From Eubacteriaceae bacterium (GTDB lineage: Bacteria; Bacillota; Clostridia; Eubacteriales; Alkalibacteraceae), in NCBI GenBank assembly GCA_013335935.1, contig JAAXUP010000007.1:1-56222 (forward strand): DNA of 56,222 nt, in the 5' to 3' direction. Position numbers and translations under genes: made by a program. A model generated the notes under the pieces. That model did no database searches, was not told where the DNA came from, and worked only from the letters and a program-made list of their open reading frames with translations. Below, one piece after another: positions 1,585-9,496 of this stretch. Position 1 is the stretch's first letter. The number at the start of each line of letters is the position of its first letter.

Positions 1585-2028
1585 TTATTCCAGAATTCTC
1601 AGCACTTCGTCGCCATCCCCAGCATTGAGAAGCTTTTCCCGAATATCTGGGTTGATAAGCCTCCTTGAAAGCAAACTCAGAACCTTCAGGTGCTCATCTG
1701 TTGCATCTTCTGGCACCCCGATAAGAAAAAATAGTCTGCAGGGATCTCCGTCAAGCGCTTCAAAATCCACCTCATATTTTGACCGGCCAAAGGCTACGAA
1801 GGAACTATCCACACCCTCTGATTTCCCATGAGGCATAGCAACGCCAAATCCAATACCTGTTGACTTCTTCTCTTCTCTTTCCATTACCGAATTCAGAAGA
1901 CTGTTTTTATCTTTTACATACCCGGATACAACGGCAAGATCCACCAGTTCTTCAATAATGTCATTTTTATTCTGGGATTCTAACACCATCTTGACCATGC
2001 ATTTTTTCAAGAGATCTTTAATATCCAT
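1585..2028 (-). CDS. PTS fructose-type EIIA domain protein
   Basis: Phosphotransfer protein of the fructose-mannitol PTS family, 147 residues, passing phosphate from HPr towards an EIIB domain. The phosphorylated histidine is His67 in the AMPHGKSEG motif, and the length is that of a single EIIA domain. The start at 2028 is chosen because GGGGAG lies just upstream and because the longer frame would overlap fruK. It is the last gene of fruR-fruK-EIIA. No EIIB or EIIC gene follows, so the membrane permease must lie elsewhere or the protein has a regulatory role. The family call is firm; the sugar is inferred from the neighbouring fruK. Confidence 0.88.
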   Translation of the reverse strand: MDIKDLLKKCMVKMVLESQNKNDIIEELVDLAVVSGYVKDKNSLLNSVMEREEKKSTGIGFGVAMPHGKSEGVDSSFVAFGRSKYEVDFEALDGDPCRLFFLIGVPEDATDEHLKVLSLLSRRLINPDIREKLLNAGDGDEVLRILE

Positions 2029-3740: not shown

Positions 3741-3776
3741 TAGAAACCTCCATTCACGGGATGCCTGTTCATGCAC

Positions 3777-3811
3777 GTATTTGTCTGTATAGGACTGTAT
3801 TTGACTATTTG
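3777..3811 (-). promoter_or_regulatory. Candidate FruR operator, three direct repeats
   Basis: GTATTTG occurs at 3777-3783 and 3797-3803, exactly 20 bp (two helical turns) apart, with a third near-copy CTATTTG at 3805-3811. The repeats sit at and just downstream of the expected start site of the fruR promoter, which suits autorepression by a DeoR-family protein. Confidence 0.6.
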
Positions 3812-3813
3812 TG

Positions 3814-3842
3814 ATTATATCAAGTTTTTTCACTGTCGTCAA
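3814..3842 (-). promoter_or_regulatory. Promoter of the fruR-fruK-EIIA operon
   Basis: On the minus strand, TTGACG (3837-3842) and TATAAT (3814-3819) are separated by 17 bp. This is a near-consensus housekeeping promoter reading into fruR. Confidence 0.85.
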
Positions 3843-3872
3843 GCCACTTTACTTCCTATTACAAAAAAGCGT

Positions 3873-3901
3873 TTGACATATAAAAACAATTCCTGTATTC
3901 T
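3873..3901 (+). promoter_or_regulatory. Promoter of the hydrogenase-maturation operon
   Basis: TTGACA at 3873-3878 and TATTCT at 3896-3901 with a 17-bp spacer. It is divergent from the fruR promoter, the two -35 boxes being 30 bp apart. The expected start near 3908 leaves a leader of about 240 nt before the first gene. Confidence 0.8.
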
Positions 3902-3907
3902 ATTAGT

Positions 3908-4150
3908 TAATAATATAACAATATCTGAGCTCAAGGGTTTTCTGAGAGTAAGGGTCATAGTTCAAGCGATATCTTCTCCTGAAGCTGTTAAGTTAATAGC
4001 CGCCAAGGGTTATGATGGGGTCGTTTATTATACCTTATTGCCTCAGGCAGTAAGGTTTTTTTGTGTTAGTAACGCGTCAAAGATGCTGTTCTCGTTGAAT
4101 AGTGCATCAGAAGCGTTGTTCTTGTGTTTCTTGAAAGGAAAAATGATAAT
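3908..4150 (+). promoter_or_regulatory. Long leader with attenuator, upstream of the hyd operon
   Basis: An untranslated leader of about 240 nt lies between the promoter and the aspartase-like gene. It ends in a strong intrinsic terminator (4032-4062), so the downstream genes need read-through. AGTAAGG at 3947-3953 can pair with CCTTATT at 4033-4039, the left arm of the terminator, giving a possible antiterminator. I could not match it to a known riboswitch: the CTGAGAG word resembles one TPP element but the rest of the TPP core is missing. An open frame crosses the region but has no ribosome binding site and runs through the terminator hairpin. Confidence 0.6.
4032..4062 (+). terminator. Leader terminator (attenuator)
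   Basis: An 11-bp stem (4032-4042 with 4046-4056, one G-T pair) with a 3-nt loop is followed by a run of T. It lies about 90 bp before the first start codon of the hyd operon. Confidence 0.85.
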
Positions 4151-5560
4151 ATGTGCGAAACAAGAATGGAAAAAGATATTCTGGGAGTTATGGAGATCTC
4201 CCGAAGCGATCTCTTTGGTATCAATACGGCCAGAGCTGCTTCAAATTTTAAATTAGGTAACGACAAGGTAAGCCTTTCCTTGATTTATGCCGTAGTCATG
4301 GTCAAAAAAGCAGCTGCTATGGTAAACCAAAAATTAGGAGATCTGAGTTCTGACCTGTCGACGGCAATGATCAAAGCCTGCGATTTGATATTCTCCGGGG
4401 GATTTGATGATCAGTTTGTTCTTCACCCCCTCCAGGGTGGAGCAGGAACCTCTATAAACATGAATGTCAATGAAGTGATCGCCAATATTGCAAATATCGA
4501 GTTGGGAGGCATGCCAGGGGATTATACCCTCGTCCATCCCATGAACCATGTGAATATGAGCCAAAGCACCAACGACGTTTTCCCCACAGCAATTAGAATT
4601 GCAGCAATTTACAAAATACGGGCGCTGGCTGACGTTCTTGCAGCGCTTCAGTCCAGCCTGCAGCAAAAAGAAAATGATTTTTCAGACATCCTGAAGCTTG
4701 GCAGGACCCAGATGATGGATGCCCTCCCTATTACCCTGGGCCAGGAATTTGGCGCATATGCCAGGGCAATCTCAAGAGACCGATGGCGGATCTACAAAGT
4801 TGAAGAGCGGCTCAGAGAAACGAATATCGGAGGGACAGCCATAGGGACCGGTCTTAATGCTAAACTCGAATATATCTATATGGTCACGGAAGAGCTCCAG
4901 AAGCTTACAGGCCTGGGACTGGCCAGAAGCGACCTGCTGGTGGATACCACTCAAAACATGGATGTTTTTGCTGAGGTTTCCGGATTCCTGAAAGCATGCG
5001 CTGTTAACCTCATCAAGATATCAAATGACCTCAGGCTTATGTCCTCAGGACCCAGAGGGGGCTTAGGAGAAATCCACCTGGAGGCACTTCAGCAGGGCTC
5101 TACCATCATGCCGGGAAAGGTCAATCCGGTCATGTGCGAAATGATGATCCAGGTATGCTACCGTGTGATAGGCAATGATTCCACCCTAACGGCAGCCGCT
5201 TATTCCGGCAGCTTCGAATTGAACCCATTCTCACCCCTCATCGCCCATACGCTTCTGGAGTCACTGGATTTGATGATCCATGGAATCACACAGTTTAATG
5301 AGCTTTGTATTAAAACCTTGAAAGCAGACAAAGAAAAATGCCTGGAGTATGTTGTAAAATCTTCTGCTCTTGCAGCCGCACTGATCGGTCATATCGGATA
5401 TGATGAGGCTGCCTCCATTGCAAAGGAAGCTTATGAAAACAACACCTCCATCAAAGACATTGTGATAGCCCGTGAACTTATGGGTGAAGAAGAATTAAAC
5501 GAAATTTTGGATATCTACCAGGTGACAAAACCTGGTATCCCGGGAAGGAAGAAAAAATGA
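4151..5560 (+). CDS. aspA: Aspartate ammonia-lyase family protein of the hyd operon
   Basis: Member of the aspartase/fumarase superfamily, 469 residues, expected to release ammonia from aspartate to give fumarate. Family blocks are present: GGAGTSINMNVNEVIAN, HVNMSQSTNDVFPT, GRTQMMDALPITLGQEF and the signature loop GSTIMPGKVNP. The catalytic serine of that loop is kept, but the usual GSS reads GST, and the usual HPND reads HPMN, so it is a divergent member. The start at 4151 follows GAAAGGA; the frame opens at 4124 without a better site. The stop overlaps hydF by ATGA, so the two are translationally coupled. That coupling suggests the ammonia may feed synthesis of the azadithiolate ligand, which is an inference. 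Confidence 0.85.
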   Translation: MCETRMEKDILGVMEISRSDLFGINTARAASNFKLGNDKVSLSLIYAVVMVKKAAAMVNQKLGDLSSDLSTAMIKACDLIFSGGFDDQFVLHPLQGGAGTSINMNVNEVIANIANIELGGMPGDYTLVHPMNHVNMSQSTNDVFPTAIRIAAIYKIRALADVLAALQSSLQQKENDFSDILKLGRTQMMDALPITLGQEFGAYARAISRDRWRIYKVEERLRETNIGGTAIGTGLNAKLEYIYMVTEELQKLTGLGLARSDLLVDTTQNMDVFAEVSGFLKACAVNLIKISNDLRLMSSGPRGGLGEIHLEALQQGSTIMPGKVNPVMCEMMIQVCYRVIGNDSTLTAAAYSGSFELNPFSPLIAHTLLESLDLMIHGITQFNELCIKTLKADKEKCLEYVVKSSALAAALIGHIGYDEAASIAKEAYENNTSIKDIVIARELMGEEELNEILDIYQVTKPGIPGRKKK

Positions 5561-6804
5561 GTCTAAACAGTACACCCCAGGCAAATCGAGTACATATCGC
5601 ATTTTTCGGAAAGACAAACGCAGGAAAATCCAGCCTGATCAATGCTGTCACCAACCAGGATATTGCCATCGTCTCCCCCATAAAAGGAACGACCACTGAT
5701 CCTGTCTATAAATCCATGGAACTGCTGCCCATTGGACCGGTGACCATGATCGATACCGCCGGACTTTGCGACGACGGAATTTTAGGAGAACTCCGGAAAG
5801 AAAAAACTATTGAGGTCTTAAATAAAACAGATATTGCCATCCTGGTACTGGAAGGAACCGACAGAGACATCTCCTTTGAAAAGACCCTCCTTGAAGTAAT
5901 CAAAGGAAAAAAGATTCCTGTCCTTGGAGTTTTGAATAAAAAAGACCTTCTGGAGGACATTGAAGAATCAAGAAAATATTTCGAATCAGAACTTGGCATT
6001 CCCCTTTTAACTGTTTCAGCCAAAGACCGGGAAGGCATATTTCATTTGAAAGAAGAAATCGGAAAGCATGCACCAAAGGATGAGGACAAGTTTAAAATTG
6101 TGGGCGATCTGATTTCCCCGGGAGATTTCGTTATTCTGGTTACCCCCATCGACAAAGCTGCCCCTAAAGGAAGGCTCATCCTCCCTCAGCAGCAGACTAT
6201 CCGAGATATCCTTGAGAGTGATGCAATGGCCATCGTAACAAAAGAATATGAGCTAAGGGAAACGCTGATGAAACTTGGGACCAAACCCAAACTCGTGATA
6301 ACGGATTCCCAGGCTTTTCTCAAAGTTAGTGCCGATACCCCCCGAGATATCCTGATGACTTCATTTTCCATACTCTTTGCCAGACATAAAGGGGATTTGA
6401 ATACTTTGGTCAGAGGAGCAAGGCAAATATCCAAACTGAAAGATCATGACAAGGTGCTGATCGCTGAAGGCTGCACCCATCACAGGCAGACCGATGACAT
6501 CGGCACTGTCAAAATTCCCAGATGGCTTAGACAGCTTACTGGTAAGAACCTGGATTTCCATCATGTTTCAGGAGTTGAATTCACCAAAGATGTTGAACAA
6601 TATTCCCTGATCGTCCACTGTGGCGGATGCATGCTGAACCATAGAGCCATGCTTCACCGGATCGAATCCGCAGACGGCTATGAAGTGCCCATTGTGAACT
6701 ATGGCGTACTGATCGCTTATGTCCACGGAATCCTTGAGAGAGCTCTTGAGCCCTTTCCTTTGGCTAAAATGATATGGGATAAGGAGGATGAACCAAATGC
6801 TTAA
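5557..6804 (+). CDS. hydF: [FeFe]-hydrogenase maturation GTPase HydF
   Basis: Scaffold on which the 2Fe subcluster of the H-cluster is assembled before delivery to apo-hydrogenase. The 415-residue protein has a TrmE/Era-like GTPase domain with P-loop GKTNAGKS (residues 18-25), a GTTTDP switch, DTAG and NKKD. A dimerization domain follows, then the C-terminal [4Fe-4S] site: Cys306-Thr-His308 and His354-Cys355-Gly-Gly-Cys358, matching the CxH-x45-HCxxC pattern of HydF. It overlaps the upstream aspA-like gene and the downstream TM1266-type gene, so the operon is tightly coupled. Confidence 0.96.
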   Translation: MSLNSTPQANRVHIAFFGKTNAGKSSLINAVTNQDIAIVSPIKGTTTDPVYKSMELLPIGPVTMIDTAGLCDDGILGELRKEKTIEVLNKTDIAILVLEGTDRDISFEKTLLEVIKGKKIPVLGVLNKKDLLEDIEESRKYFESELGIPLLTVSAKDREGIFHLKEEIGKHAPKDEDKFKIVGDLISPGDFVILVTPIDKAAPKGRLILPQQQTIRDILESDAMAIVTKEYELRETLMKLGTKPKLVITDSQAFLKVSADTPRDILMTSFSILFARHKGDLNTLVRGARQISKLKDHDKVLIAEGCTHHRQTDDIGTVKIPRWLRQLTGKNLDFHHVSGVEFTKDVEQYSLIVHCGGCMLNHRAMLHRIESADGYEVPIVNYGVLIAYVHGILERALEPFPLAKMIWDKEDEPNA

Positions 6805-7051
6805 CCGGATAGGCGTTGTCGGGATCGTGATCGAGGAAAGTGACAGCATTGGCAGAATCAACGAAATCCTTCACGAGCATTCATCAATCATTTCAGGAAG
6901 AATGGGTCTTCCTCATATCAACGGAAGACATGTAAATATTATTTCCATCGTTGTGGATGGAACGACAGATGAAATCGGAAGCCTTACAGGAAAACTGGGG
7001 GCACTTCCAGGAGTCAGTGTTAAAAGTGCATTATCTAAAAAAACCTATTAG
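6797..7051 (+). CDS. TM1266-type putative hydrogenase-system regulator
   Basis: An 84-residue ACT/NikR-like ferredoxin-fold protein of the family annotated as iron-only hydrogenase system regulator, after Thermotoga TM1266. It starts RIGVVGIVIEES and has the conserved central segment ISGRMGLPHINGRHVNIISI. It has no DNA-binding domain, so its role is unproven. The start at 6797 is preferred over the ATG at 6788 because AAGGAGG at 6781-6787 is 9 nt away; this start overlaps the hydF stop. It lies directly between hydF and hydG. Confidence 0.85.
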   Translation: MLNRIGVVGIVIEESDSIGRINEILHEHSSIISGRMGLPHINGRHVNIISIVVDGTTDEIGSLTGKLGALPGVSVKSALSKKTY

Positions 7052-7060
7052 GAGGACCAA

Positions 7061-8434
7061 ATGAAAAAATTTATCAATGATGATCTGATTTATTCTTTGC
7101 TGGAAGAATCGAAAAACACCACTAAGGAGACGATCCTTAGCATACTGGAGAAATCAAGAAACCTGCAGGTACTGGATCTGAAGGAAGTTGCCATGCTATT
7201 GCAGTGCGAGGATCCTGAGCTTCTGGAAAAAATGTACGAGACTGCAAACTACATTAAAGAGACGATCTATGGCAACAGAGTCGTTATGTTCGCTCCCCTC
7301 TATATCTCCAACTACTGCATAAACAAATGCAGCTACTGCGGCTTTAAATGTTCCAATGATTTTGAAAGAAAGCGTCTTACTGATGAGGAAATTGAAAAAG
7401 AAGTCCGGATCATCGAGAATATGGGACATAAAAGGATTGCCCTGGAAGCCGGCGAAGACGATGAAAACTGCCCAATAGATTATGTGCTCCATGCCATGGA
7501 CGTGATTTACAAAACCAAACTGGACAACGGAAGCATTCGTAGAATTAATGTTAATATCGCTGCTACCACAGTTGAAAACTACAAAAAACTTAAAGATGCC
7601 GGTATCGGAACCTACATTCTCTTCCAGGAATCTTACCATGAAGATACCTATAAGAACTATCATCTGTCAGGACCAAAGGCAGATTACCTTTACCACCTCA
7701 CAGCCATGGACAGAGCCATGGAAGGTGGAATCGACGATGTGGGCATAGCTGCTCTTCTTGGACTTTATGACTACAAATTCGAGGTAATGGGGATCATGAT
7801 GCACCGAGATCACCTGGAAGAAAAATATGGTGTTGGTCCCCATACCATATCGGTTCCAAGGATCAGAAAAGCAAGAGATGTGGCTACAGAAGCTTTCCCC
7901 CATGCGGTTTCTGACGATGATTTCAAAAAACTGGTTGCTATCATACGATGTGCTGTTCCCTACACCGGAATAATCCTTTCAACAAGGGAGCATGCTAAAA
8001 TGAGGGATGAACTTATCAATATGGGCGTATCTCAGTTAAGTTCAGGTTCTAAGACCGATGTGGGCGGCTATAGCGACAGTGAAAAAATGGATCAGTTCGA
8101 AAAAGCAGATGAAAGGTCTTCCGCTCAAGTCATCAATACGCTCCTGGAAAAGGGCTACCTGCCTAGCTATTGCACGGCCTGCTATCGTGCGGGAAGAACT
8201 GGCGATCGATTCATGGAAGTTGCCAAGAGCGGAAACATCCACAACTTGTGTCAGCCTAATGCTCTGCTGACACTAAAGGAATATCTCATGGACTACGCAG
8301 ATGCCGAATTAAAAGCTCTGGGTGAATCCGTGATCGAAAAGAATATCCGTATGATCCCAAGTGAAAAAATGCGTGAAACGACTGTAAACAGGCTTAAAAA
8401 AATCGAAGAAGGCGAAAGAGATATGTTCTTCTAA
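7061..8434 (+). CDS. hydG: [FeFe]-hydrogenase H-cluster radical SAM maturase HydG
   Basis: Radical SAM tyrosine lyase that cleaves tyrosine to p-cresol and dehydroglycine and gives the CO and CN ligands of the H-cluster. The 457-residue protein has the radical SAM motif Cys86-x3-Cys90-x2-Cys93 in a TIM barrel. Its C-terminal auxiliary cluster motif Cys371-x2-Cys374-x22-Cys397 distinguishes HydG from ThiH. AGGAGG lies just before the ATG. It follows the TM1266-type gene by 9 bp and precedes hydE by 12 bp. Confidence 0.96.
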   Translation: MKKFINDDLIYSLLEESKNTTKETILSILEKSRNLQVLDLKEVAMLLQCEDPELLEKMYETANYIKETIYGNRVVMFAPLYISNYCINKCSYCGFKCSNDFERKRLTDEEIEKEVRIIENMGHKRIALEAGEDDENCPIDYVLHAMDVIYKTKLDNGSIRRINVNIAATTVENYKKLKDAGIGTYILFQESYHEDTYKNYHLSGPKADYLYHLTAMDRAMEGGIDDVGIAALLGLYDYKFEVMGIMMHRDHLEEKYGVGPHTISVPRIRKARDVATEAFPHAVSDDDFKKLVAIIRCAVPYTGIILSTREHAKMRDELINMGVSQLSSGSKTDVGGYSDSEKMDQFEKADERSSAQVINTLLEKGYLPSYCTACYRAGRTGDRFMEVAKSGNIHNLCQPNALLTLKEYLMDYADAELKALGESVIEKNIRMIPSEKMRETTVNRLKKIEEGERDMFF

Positions 8435-8446
8435 AAGAGGTGTTTT

Positions 8447-9496
8447 ATGGCAATCAAATATTCCGTGCCAGCTATTATCGAGAAATTATTTCGGACGTCA
8501 GAGGCTTCAAAAGAAGAGCTGATCACACTCCTTGGTGTTCTTATTAAGGAAGATGAAGCGTTCCTTTTAGAGAAGGCTTTTGAAAAAAGAAACGAAATTT
8601 ATGGCAATTCCGTCTATGTAAGAGGGCTGATTGAATTTTCTAACTACTGTACCGCAACCTGCAATTACTGTGGGTTGCGGTCGGACAATACTATCGAAAG
8701 ATATCGACTTTCGGAAGATCAAATCATCACCCAATGTAAAATAGGCTACGACTTCGGTTATCGAACATTTGTTCTGCAGAGTGGTGAAGATCCCTGGTAT
8801 ACCAAAGACAGACTTGTAGCAATCGTTGCAGGGATCAAAAAGTGCTGTACTGATGCTGCAGTCACTTTGTCCATCGGTGAAAGAACGGAAGAAGAATACC
8901 AGGCATTTTTCGATGCCGGTGCTGACCGGTTCCTTCTGAGGCAGGAAGCCTACAATAAAAAGTTATACGATAATATGCATCCAGGAATGGATCATGAAAA
9001 CAGGATAAGCTGTCTGAGAACGCTCAAAAAAATCGGGTACCAGACAGGTGCAGGCTTTATGGTGGGCATAAAGAATCAGACTCTGGAAAACATTGCAGAG
9101 GATTTGATTTTCATGAAAGAACTCCAGCCTGACATGATTGGAATCGGTCCATTCATGCCATCCCAGAATACCCCTTACGAGAAGGAAAGTCCCGGAGATG
9201 CGGAACTGACACTAAGAGTCCTTGCTATAACGAGGCTCCTTGTCCCCCATGCGCTAATGCCCATGACCACCGCTCTCGTCTCCCTTTGTCCCGAGATCAG
9301 GGAAAGAGCCCTTAAAGCCGGGTCCAACGTAATTATGCCCAACCTGACCCCTGATAACGGCGGTTACAAATATAAGCTCTATGACAACAAAAGCGTTACC
9401 GAGGGCTTGGATCAGGAAAAAATGGCAGCCCTGAGCAAAAAAATCAAAGAAGTAGGATTCGATCTCCAGATGGTCCGGGGAGATGTCATAAAATAA
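8447..9496 (+). CDS. hydE: [FeFe]-hydrogenase H-cluster radical SAM maturase HydE
   Basis: Radical SAM enzyme of 349 residues in the BioB-like family that acts on an Fe(CO)2CN-cysteine synthon made by HydG. The cluster motif is Cys68-x3-Cys72-x2-Cys75 (NYCTATCNYCGLR), followed by a full TIM barrel. It lacks the HydG-type C-terminal CxxC-x22-C. An AAAGAGG site precedes the ATG. It is the last gene of the operon; a 15-bp perfect stem lies 6 bp past its stop. No hydrogenase structural gene is in this window, so the maturation genes stand apart from their target. Confidence 0.95.
   Translation: MAIKYSVPAIIEKLFRTSEASKEELITLLGVLIKEDEAFLLEKAFEKRNEIYGNSVYVRGLIEFSNYCTATCNYCGLRSDNTIERYRLSEDQIITQCKIGYDFGYRTFVLQSGEDPWYTKDRLVAIVAGIKKCCTDAAVTLSIGERTEEEYQAFFDAGADRFLLRQEAYNKKLYDNMHPGMDHENRISCLRTLKKIGYQTGAGFMVGIKNQTLENIAEDLIFMKELQPDMIGIGPFMPSQNTPYEKESPGDAELTLRVLAITRLLVPHALMPMTTALVSLCPEIRERALKAGSNVIMPNLTPDNGGYKYKLYDNKSVTEGLDQEKMAALSKKIKEVGFDLQMVRGDVIK

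Follow-up and report, generated by a model that had tools for sequence, protein, structure and literature searches.

A conserved hairpin RNA in front of [FeFe]-hydrogenase maturation genes, a putative attenuator family with TM1266 as its possible reader

Introduction

Protein-controlled attenuators, e.g. those of TRAP, HutP and PyrR as well as the ribosomal-protein leaders, make use of antiterminator and terminator structures that exclude each other, and the gene for the regulator often resides in the regulated operon. Small riboswitches such as preQ1-I are compact RNAs that occur on two platforms, i.e. 5′ of a terminator or 5′ of a Shine-Dalgarno (SD) motif. The literature on riboswitches or attenuators in connection with hydrogenase maturation, and on the protein family TM1266, yielded no description of the motif reported here. 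The published surveys of structured bacterial RNAs that were consulted contain no reference to hydrogenase or hyd genes. That aspA is associated with hyd operons has been described before (PMC11736057).

The leader under study belongs to an operon in the window, i.e. the whole 56-kb stretch of DNA that was analysed. On the plus strand, the operon encodes an aspA-like aspartate ammonia-lyase as its first gene (4151–5560), hydF (5557–6804, TIGR03918), a member of the TM1266 family (6788–7051, TIGR03959 with 104.6 bits, PF21699), hydG (7061–8434, TIGR03955), and hydE (8447–9496, TIGR03956). TM1266 family members, of which one relative has been solved (PDB 2NZC), are annotated as putative regulators of the hydrogenase system, and no report of a tested function or target was found in the literature searched.

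Results

Layout of the leader and comparison with known RNA families

A sigma-70-type promoter (TTGACA-17-TATTCT, 10 of 12 consensus matches) is located at positions 3873–3901 of the plus strand, with the transcription start expected near 3908. The surroundings of its −35 and −10 elements are kept in G004, a genome of the same family. Counted from this start, the leader has a length of about 125 nt and ends at an intrinsic terminator (4032–4062, plus strand, −15.2 kcal/mol), which consists of an 11-bp stem, ACCTTATTGCCTCAGGCAGTAAGGT (4032–4056), and a T-rich sequence. The ATG of aspA at 4151 lies about 90 nt past the T-run and is immediately preceded by the ribosome-binding site GAAAGGA. The heptamer AGTAAGG (3947–3953) can pair fully, with one G-U pair, with CCTTATT (4033–4039) in the left arm of the terminator. 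Promoter, leader, terminator and complementary heptamer are all present at the positions given in the initial annotation. The fold energy of the leader region is unexceptional (z value of −1.0; 33 of 200 shuffled sequences fold equally well), so that only conservation can show this region to be real.

Between the terminator and aspA, the window contains a copy of a dispersed palindromic repeat (4066–4096, strand not given), GAGAATAACGCGTCAAAGACGCTGTTCTC and variants, which is missing from G004 and has eight other copies in its own genome. One of the other copies of the GAGAATAACGCGTCAAAGACGCTGTTCTC-type repeat separates a terminator-like hairpin from the ribosome-binding site of a different operon.

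The core had originally been left without a known class, and this assignment held up: a search against Rfam 15 gave no match at the gathering score in the window, the best sub-threshold match reaching 19.9 bits versus the required 44, and none in the leaders from 20 related loci. The weak matches that appear at E values of up to 10 centre mainly on the terminator. A TPP riboswitch and a T-box leader were rejected, as even at an E value of 10 neither the THI element nor the T-box gave a covariance match. The word CTGAGAG, which had been judged insufficient for a TPP assignment, consists of a CURA element and part of a stem of the new motif.

A symmetric hairpin with compensatory changes

The motif was recognised by reading the leaders of hydF-containing operons across the order. 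The first relative was G004, in which the synteny is conserved and the leader can be recognised; a search by plain DNA similarity gave this homologous leader and no other, and a strict pattern derived from the two leaders had no further match in 198 genomes. On its own, the latter result would have suggested a lineage-specific element; the motif became visible only in the hyd leaders from across the order.

In the window, the motif is a hairpin of 29 nt (3925–3953, plus strand), CUGA-GCUC-AAGG, a GUUUU loop, and CUGA-GAGU-AAGG, which is supported by the fold of the leader with minimum free energy (MFE) as well as by a covariance model (see below). Its general form is CURA-N4-AARG, a loop of about 4–8 nt, and CURA-N4′-AARG, and it is two-fold symmetric, both strands carrying the same element. 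In the alignments, the 5′ half-site comprises 3925–3936 and the 3′ half-site 3942–3953; the latter includes the heptamer at 3947–3953 and is also the 5′ strand of the putative antiterminator. The initial annotation had thus been right to single out the heptamer, but this represents only the 3′ end of the full core. The CURA and AARG nucleotides are conserved and unpaired, while the N4/N4′ stems vary between species with retention of complementarity. A DNA operator was rejected as an explanation, because in a DNA palindrome the flanks would be complementary, and in the hairpin the CURA...AARG pattern is repeated on the two strands.

Conservation and covariation were both found in related leaders. 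In an alignment of 15 sequences, the covariation score is 0.539, versus 0.151 after shuffling, with 22 double-change cells versus 7.0, and RNAalifold predicts the identical structure unaided. Part of this set had been picked with a pairing filter. An unfiltered test used 131 kb of sequence fetched by HydF alone; a stem-blind pattern matched 14 times, and not at all in shuffled sequences. In these matches 3.27 of the 4 stem positions are paired, versus 1.56 when the strands are swapped between species. In an alignment of 73 sequences, 96.9% of the cells are paired, versus 73.3% after shuffling; the 4-bp stem contains 135 double-change cells versus 38.5, and some double change occurs at all eight pairs, albeit in an alignment fitted to the structure. 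A newer set, mostly from outside the class, has 46 double-change cells versus 13.3. The compensatory changes therefore exceed those of shuffled controls, also in the test that was not conditioned on pairing.

A covariance model (R3) trained without the window leader and without G004 was applied to the window. Its sole good match is at 3925–3955 (26.8 bits, E = 2.2e-5), the next-best site reaching 13.8 bits (E = 0.23). As far as comparative sequence data can tell, there is hardly any doubt that 3925–3953 is a conserved structured RNA.

Distribution of the motif

In the Clostridia and related classes, about 96 distinct sites were detected, most of them lying immediately 5′ of TM1266, hydE, hydG, hydF or aspA. 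With one model (R1), the strong matches in 391 genomes of the class are nearly all on the sense strand and directly 5′ of these genes. A second model, applied to 329 genomes of the phylum that mostly lie outside the class, yielded 20 sites, and 16 of them are at the same hyd, TM1266 or aspA genes. Model matches within coding sequences, at five loci, were taken as chance matches and removed. Examples are Clostridium caldaquaticum, with the motif 5′ of TM1266-hydE-hydG, and Anaerocolumna sp. MB42-C2, with the motif 5′ of hydG; both loci came from a search with aspA, in which the matches listed were mostly distant aspartases.

Five leaders had no match to the motif model. Two of these, in front of hydE-hydG operons, contain a different tandem element, two copies of GTACGTCC(TAAC/CGAAC)AGGAA, with a terminator downstream. 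Another two, 5′ of TM1266-hydE-hydG-hydF, have a structured-looking leader with a terminator, reach only 14–15 bits, and are possibly a diverged variant. The fifth is the leader at locus L184. Separately, a Clostridiales-1 RNA (RF01699) was observed at positions 1751–1922 (minus strand) of locus L168, inside the hyd operon region of another genome.

Terminator and Shine-Dalgarno platforms

At 64 of the 96 distinct sites a terminator lies downstream, at a median distance of 37 nt past the motif, and at these sites the left arm of the terminator pairs with the 3′ strand of the hairpin. An automatic rule found a nearby start codon at 26 sites, and about 24 of them were judged genuine SD platforms. 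At these, the SD motif directly follows the hairpin and the start codon is a median of 12 nt away.

The pairing of the motif 3′ strand with the terminator left arm has a score of 14.6 for the true partners and of 12.9 for swapped partners (standard deviation 0.47), and only 8 of 10,000 permutations reach the true value. Between the window and G004, the heptamer varies at a single base (AGTAAGG/AGCAAGG). This base shifts together with the terminator arm (CCTTATT/CCTTGTT), which is, judged at the sequence level, a compensatory change for the antiterminator. For window transcripts that end at 4046 or 4050, the MFE structure pairs 3942–3955 with 4032–4046, so that the left arm and the loop of the terminator (4032–4046, plus strand) are predicted to form the antiterminator 3′ strand, in agreement with the coevolution of the partners. 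Once the right arm has been made, the motif hairpin together with the terminator is preferred, with −42.2 versus −35.3 kcal/mol for a fold with the enforced 7-bp antiterminator.

Folds of partial and full transcripts as well as coevolution thus indicate that antiterminator and terminator are mutually exclusive, as expected of an attenuator; conditional termination itself is only inferred. An attenuator layout, controlled by a ligand or by a protein, had been proposed for this leader on its own, and it gained support from the covarying element in front of hydrogenase maturation genes and from the two platforms. It is very likely that the motif acts together with the terminator as an attenuator. 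As long as the polymerase has not left the leader, the hairpin 3′ strand would pair with the terminator left arm, the antiterminator would form and the operon would be on. A factor that holds the hairpin would make the 3′ strand unavailable, the terminator would form, and aspA-hydF-TM1266-hydG-hydE would be off. Because the pairings of hairpin plus terminator and of the antiterminator exclude each other, whatever holds the hairpin would favour termination. In relatives with the hairpin abutting the SD motif, the bound factor would block ribosomes, and the gene would be off. We regard it as likely that the bound state is the off state on both platforms, but the direction is inferred and no transcription data are available. 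Since the calculated energies favour motif plus terminator, the operon might also be off by default, with no factor bound.

The two platforms also bear on attenuation by a leader peptide. An open frame (3771–4256) spans the leader and contains, 5′ of the terminator, two codons for Tyr, the amino acid used by HydG, so that translation-coupled attenuation may be envisaged. The frame, however, lacks ATG, GTG and TTG between promoter and terminator when read from the sequence, the conserved part is structural, and relatives have SD platforms. Leader-peptide attenuation is therefore given practically no credence.

A Rex-like box at the promoter

A Rex-like operator, TAGTTAATAATATAACAA, matches TTGTTAANNNNTTAACAA at 12 of 14 positions and overlaps the transcription start (3904–3921); in G004 the same box has 11 of 14 matches. 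Boxes with at least 12 of 14 matches in the 150 nt preceding the motif are present in 6 of 54 related leaders, versus 0.5% of shuffled sequences. An additional, separate layer of redox control, exerted by Rex at the promoter, is plausible, with nothing but the site match behind it. These boxes would also allow Rex alone to regulate the operon, the leader terminator being passive or a leftover. A passive leader, however, would not show compensatory changes, conserved half-sites, and coevolution with the terminator across classes, and Rex as the sole explanation, which is already contradicted by these data, is very improbable; an additional action of Rex remains possible.

TM1266 as candidate reader of the hairpin

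The TM1266 gene is part of the window operon, and elsewhere it often lies directly 3′ of the motif. We scored HydG, TM1266 and the motif in the same 391 genomes, with presence lists transcribed by hand. Among the genomes with HydG, the motif is present in 46 of 189 with TM1266 versus 2 of 51 without (Fisher p = 6e-4). Among the genomes without HydG, the values are 8 of 47 versus 0 of 104 (p = 6e-5). When the coding-sequence matches are left in, the p values are 0.007 with HydG and 0.004 without HydG. All of these p values are optimistic, because the genomes are not independent by descent. The motif thus co-occurs with TM1266 independently of the target pathway. The two exceptions, which carry the motif and no detectable TM1266, are incomplete drafts. 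TM1266 is present in 236 of the 391 sampled Clostridia genomes, and 182 of these 236 have no strong motif match; in them, TM1266 must act otherwise or the motif has diverged.

At five loci outside of hyd operons, TM1266 paralogues and transporters follow the motif. In four genomes it is followed by a TM1266 gene and a periplasmic-binding-type transporter, and in a fifth it lies 5′ of TM1266, a FecCD-type transporter, and a NifH-like gene. The genome G133, which has TM1266 and lacks HydG, contains the motif 5′ of a NifHDK-like operon, an NMT1-type ABC transporter, and HydE-HydF. These contexts show that the motif follows TM1266 beyond hydrogenase genes.

Further observations concern the neighbourhood of TM1266. 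Ten loci from genomes without detected HydG, four of them in G133, combine TM1266 with NMT1-type or FecCD-type importers, some also with NifH-like genes or HydE/HydF and often under the motif, which may point to a HydG-independent cofactor supply. At two loci, motif and TM1266 are followed by an ECF-S-like membrane protein without Pfam match; HydG was found in neither genome, and one of the loci has an apparent iron-hydrogenase gene just upstream. One genome encodes a TM1266-like protein slightly below the family cut-off within what appears by eye to be a cobalamin-related cluster.

In the TM1266 proteins R7, R38 and K79 are invariant, and K69 is nearly invariant. As the RNA is two-fold symmetric, a homodimeric protein would be a suitable reader. 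On balance, we favour TM1266 as the protein that binds the hairpin, an inference from co-occurrence, context and symmetry for which binding data do not exist. We know of no RNA-binding function for TM1266 or the NikR-C fold.

A reader other than TM1266 has to be considered. The hairpin of 29 nt could be a metabolite or ion riboswitch for a small ligand, e.g. an H-cluster precursor, an iron species, or an ammonia- or cysteine-related compound, and TM1266 would merely share its regulon. The conserved unpaired CURA/AARG nucleotides, the two classic platforms, the transporters in the regulon, and the two motif genomes without detected TM1266 are compatible with this. The core, however, is very small and two-fold symmetric, no pseudoknot or junction is seen, and the motif distribution follows TM1266 even in the absence of HydG, so that a riboswitch seems possible but rather unlikely. 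A ligand linked to iron, redox state, ammonia/aspartate or a maturation intermediate had been a speculation of the initial annotation; a specificity for aspA or ammonia was not borne out, and TM1266 is the best sensor candidate, with a ligand of the RNA alone not excluded. Because the hairpin has the appearance of a symmetric protein site and its binder has not been identified directly, an unrelated RNA-binding protein or a general elongation factor could also read it. A general factor would not track TM1266 or the hydrogenase genes so closely, and we consider such a reader improbable.

Discussion

The leader at 3908–4150 is, with somewhat better than even confidence, a member of a new cis-acting attenuator RNA family for [FeFe]-hydrogenase maturation that is read by TM1266. 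TM1266 would then work as a dimer in feedback repression, in response to an undetermined signal of H-cluster assembly. A more far-reaching proposal is that TM1266 acts as a homodimer with a NikR-C-like fold that binds RNA, senses the assembly of the H cluster and controls its regulon via the hairpin. In genomes without HydG, this regulon, with HydE/HydF, an NMT1-type importer, a NifHDK-like reductase, and an ECF-like or FecCD-like transporter, would then indicate a HydG-independent route to the cofactor. This proposal is speculative, and we would rather doubt it than rely on it.

If the main interpretation is true, the motif constitutes a regulatory RNA family that is absent from Rfam, the TM1266 family has a testable function, and [FeFe]-hydrogenase maturation has a regulatory layer that has been missing so far, which bears on fermentation, hydrogen metabolism in the gut, and engineered hydrogen production. 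Where HydG is missing, the regulon would in addition draw attention to transporters and nitrogenase-like proteins, which may take part in the synthesis of the H cluster.

The closest described systems share different properties with the motif. With the protein-controlled attenuators it has in common the predicted exclusive antiterminator and terminator, and the window operon encodes the candidate regulator. It differs from them in its RNA fold, the symmetric CURA/AARG hairpin, and in that the candidate protein belongs to another family, TM1266, without binding data; in the window, the PyrR and L10-leader models reach only 16.5 of the required 54 bits and 19.9 of the required 44 bits, and their alignments have the terminator at the centre. 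Like the small dual-platform riboswitches, the motif is compact and lies 5′ of a terminator or an SD motif. Unlike preQ1-I, it is symmetric, has no pseudoknot and no Rfam match, and no ligand is known. The likeness to the Rex regulon is the Rex-like operator at the window promoter, but control by Rex takes place at the DNA level and leaves the conserved RNA unexplained. For the TM1266 family, the putative regulators of the hydrogenase system, the motif RNA is, to our knowledge, the first candidate for a concrete target. The RNA family appears to be new, while the regulatory principle, an attenuator leader, is a known one.
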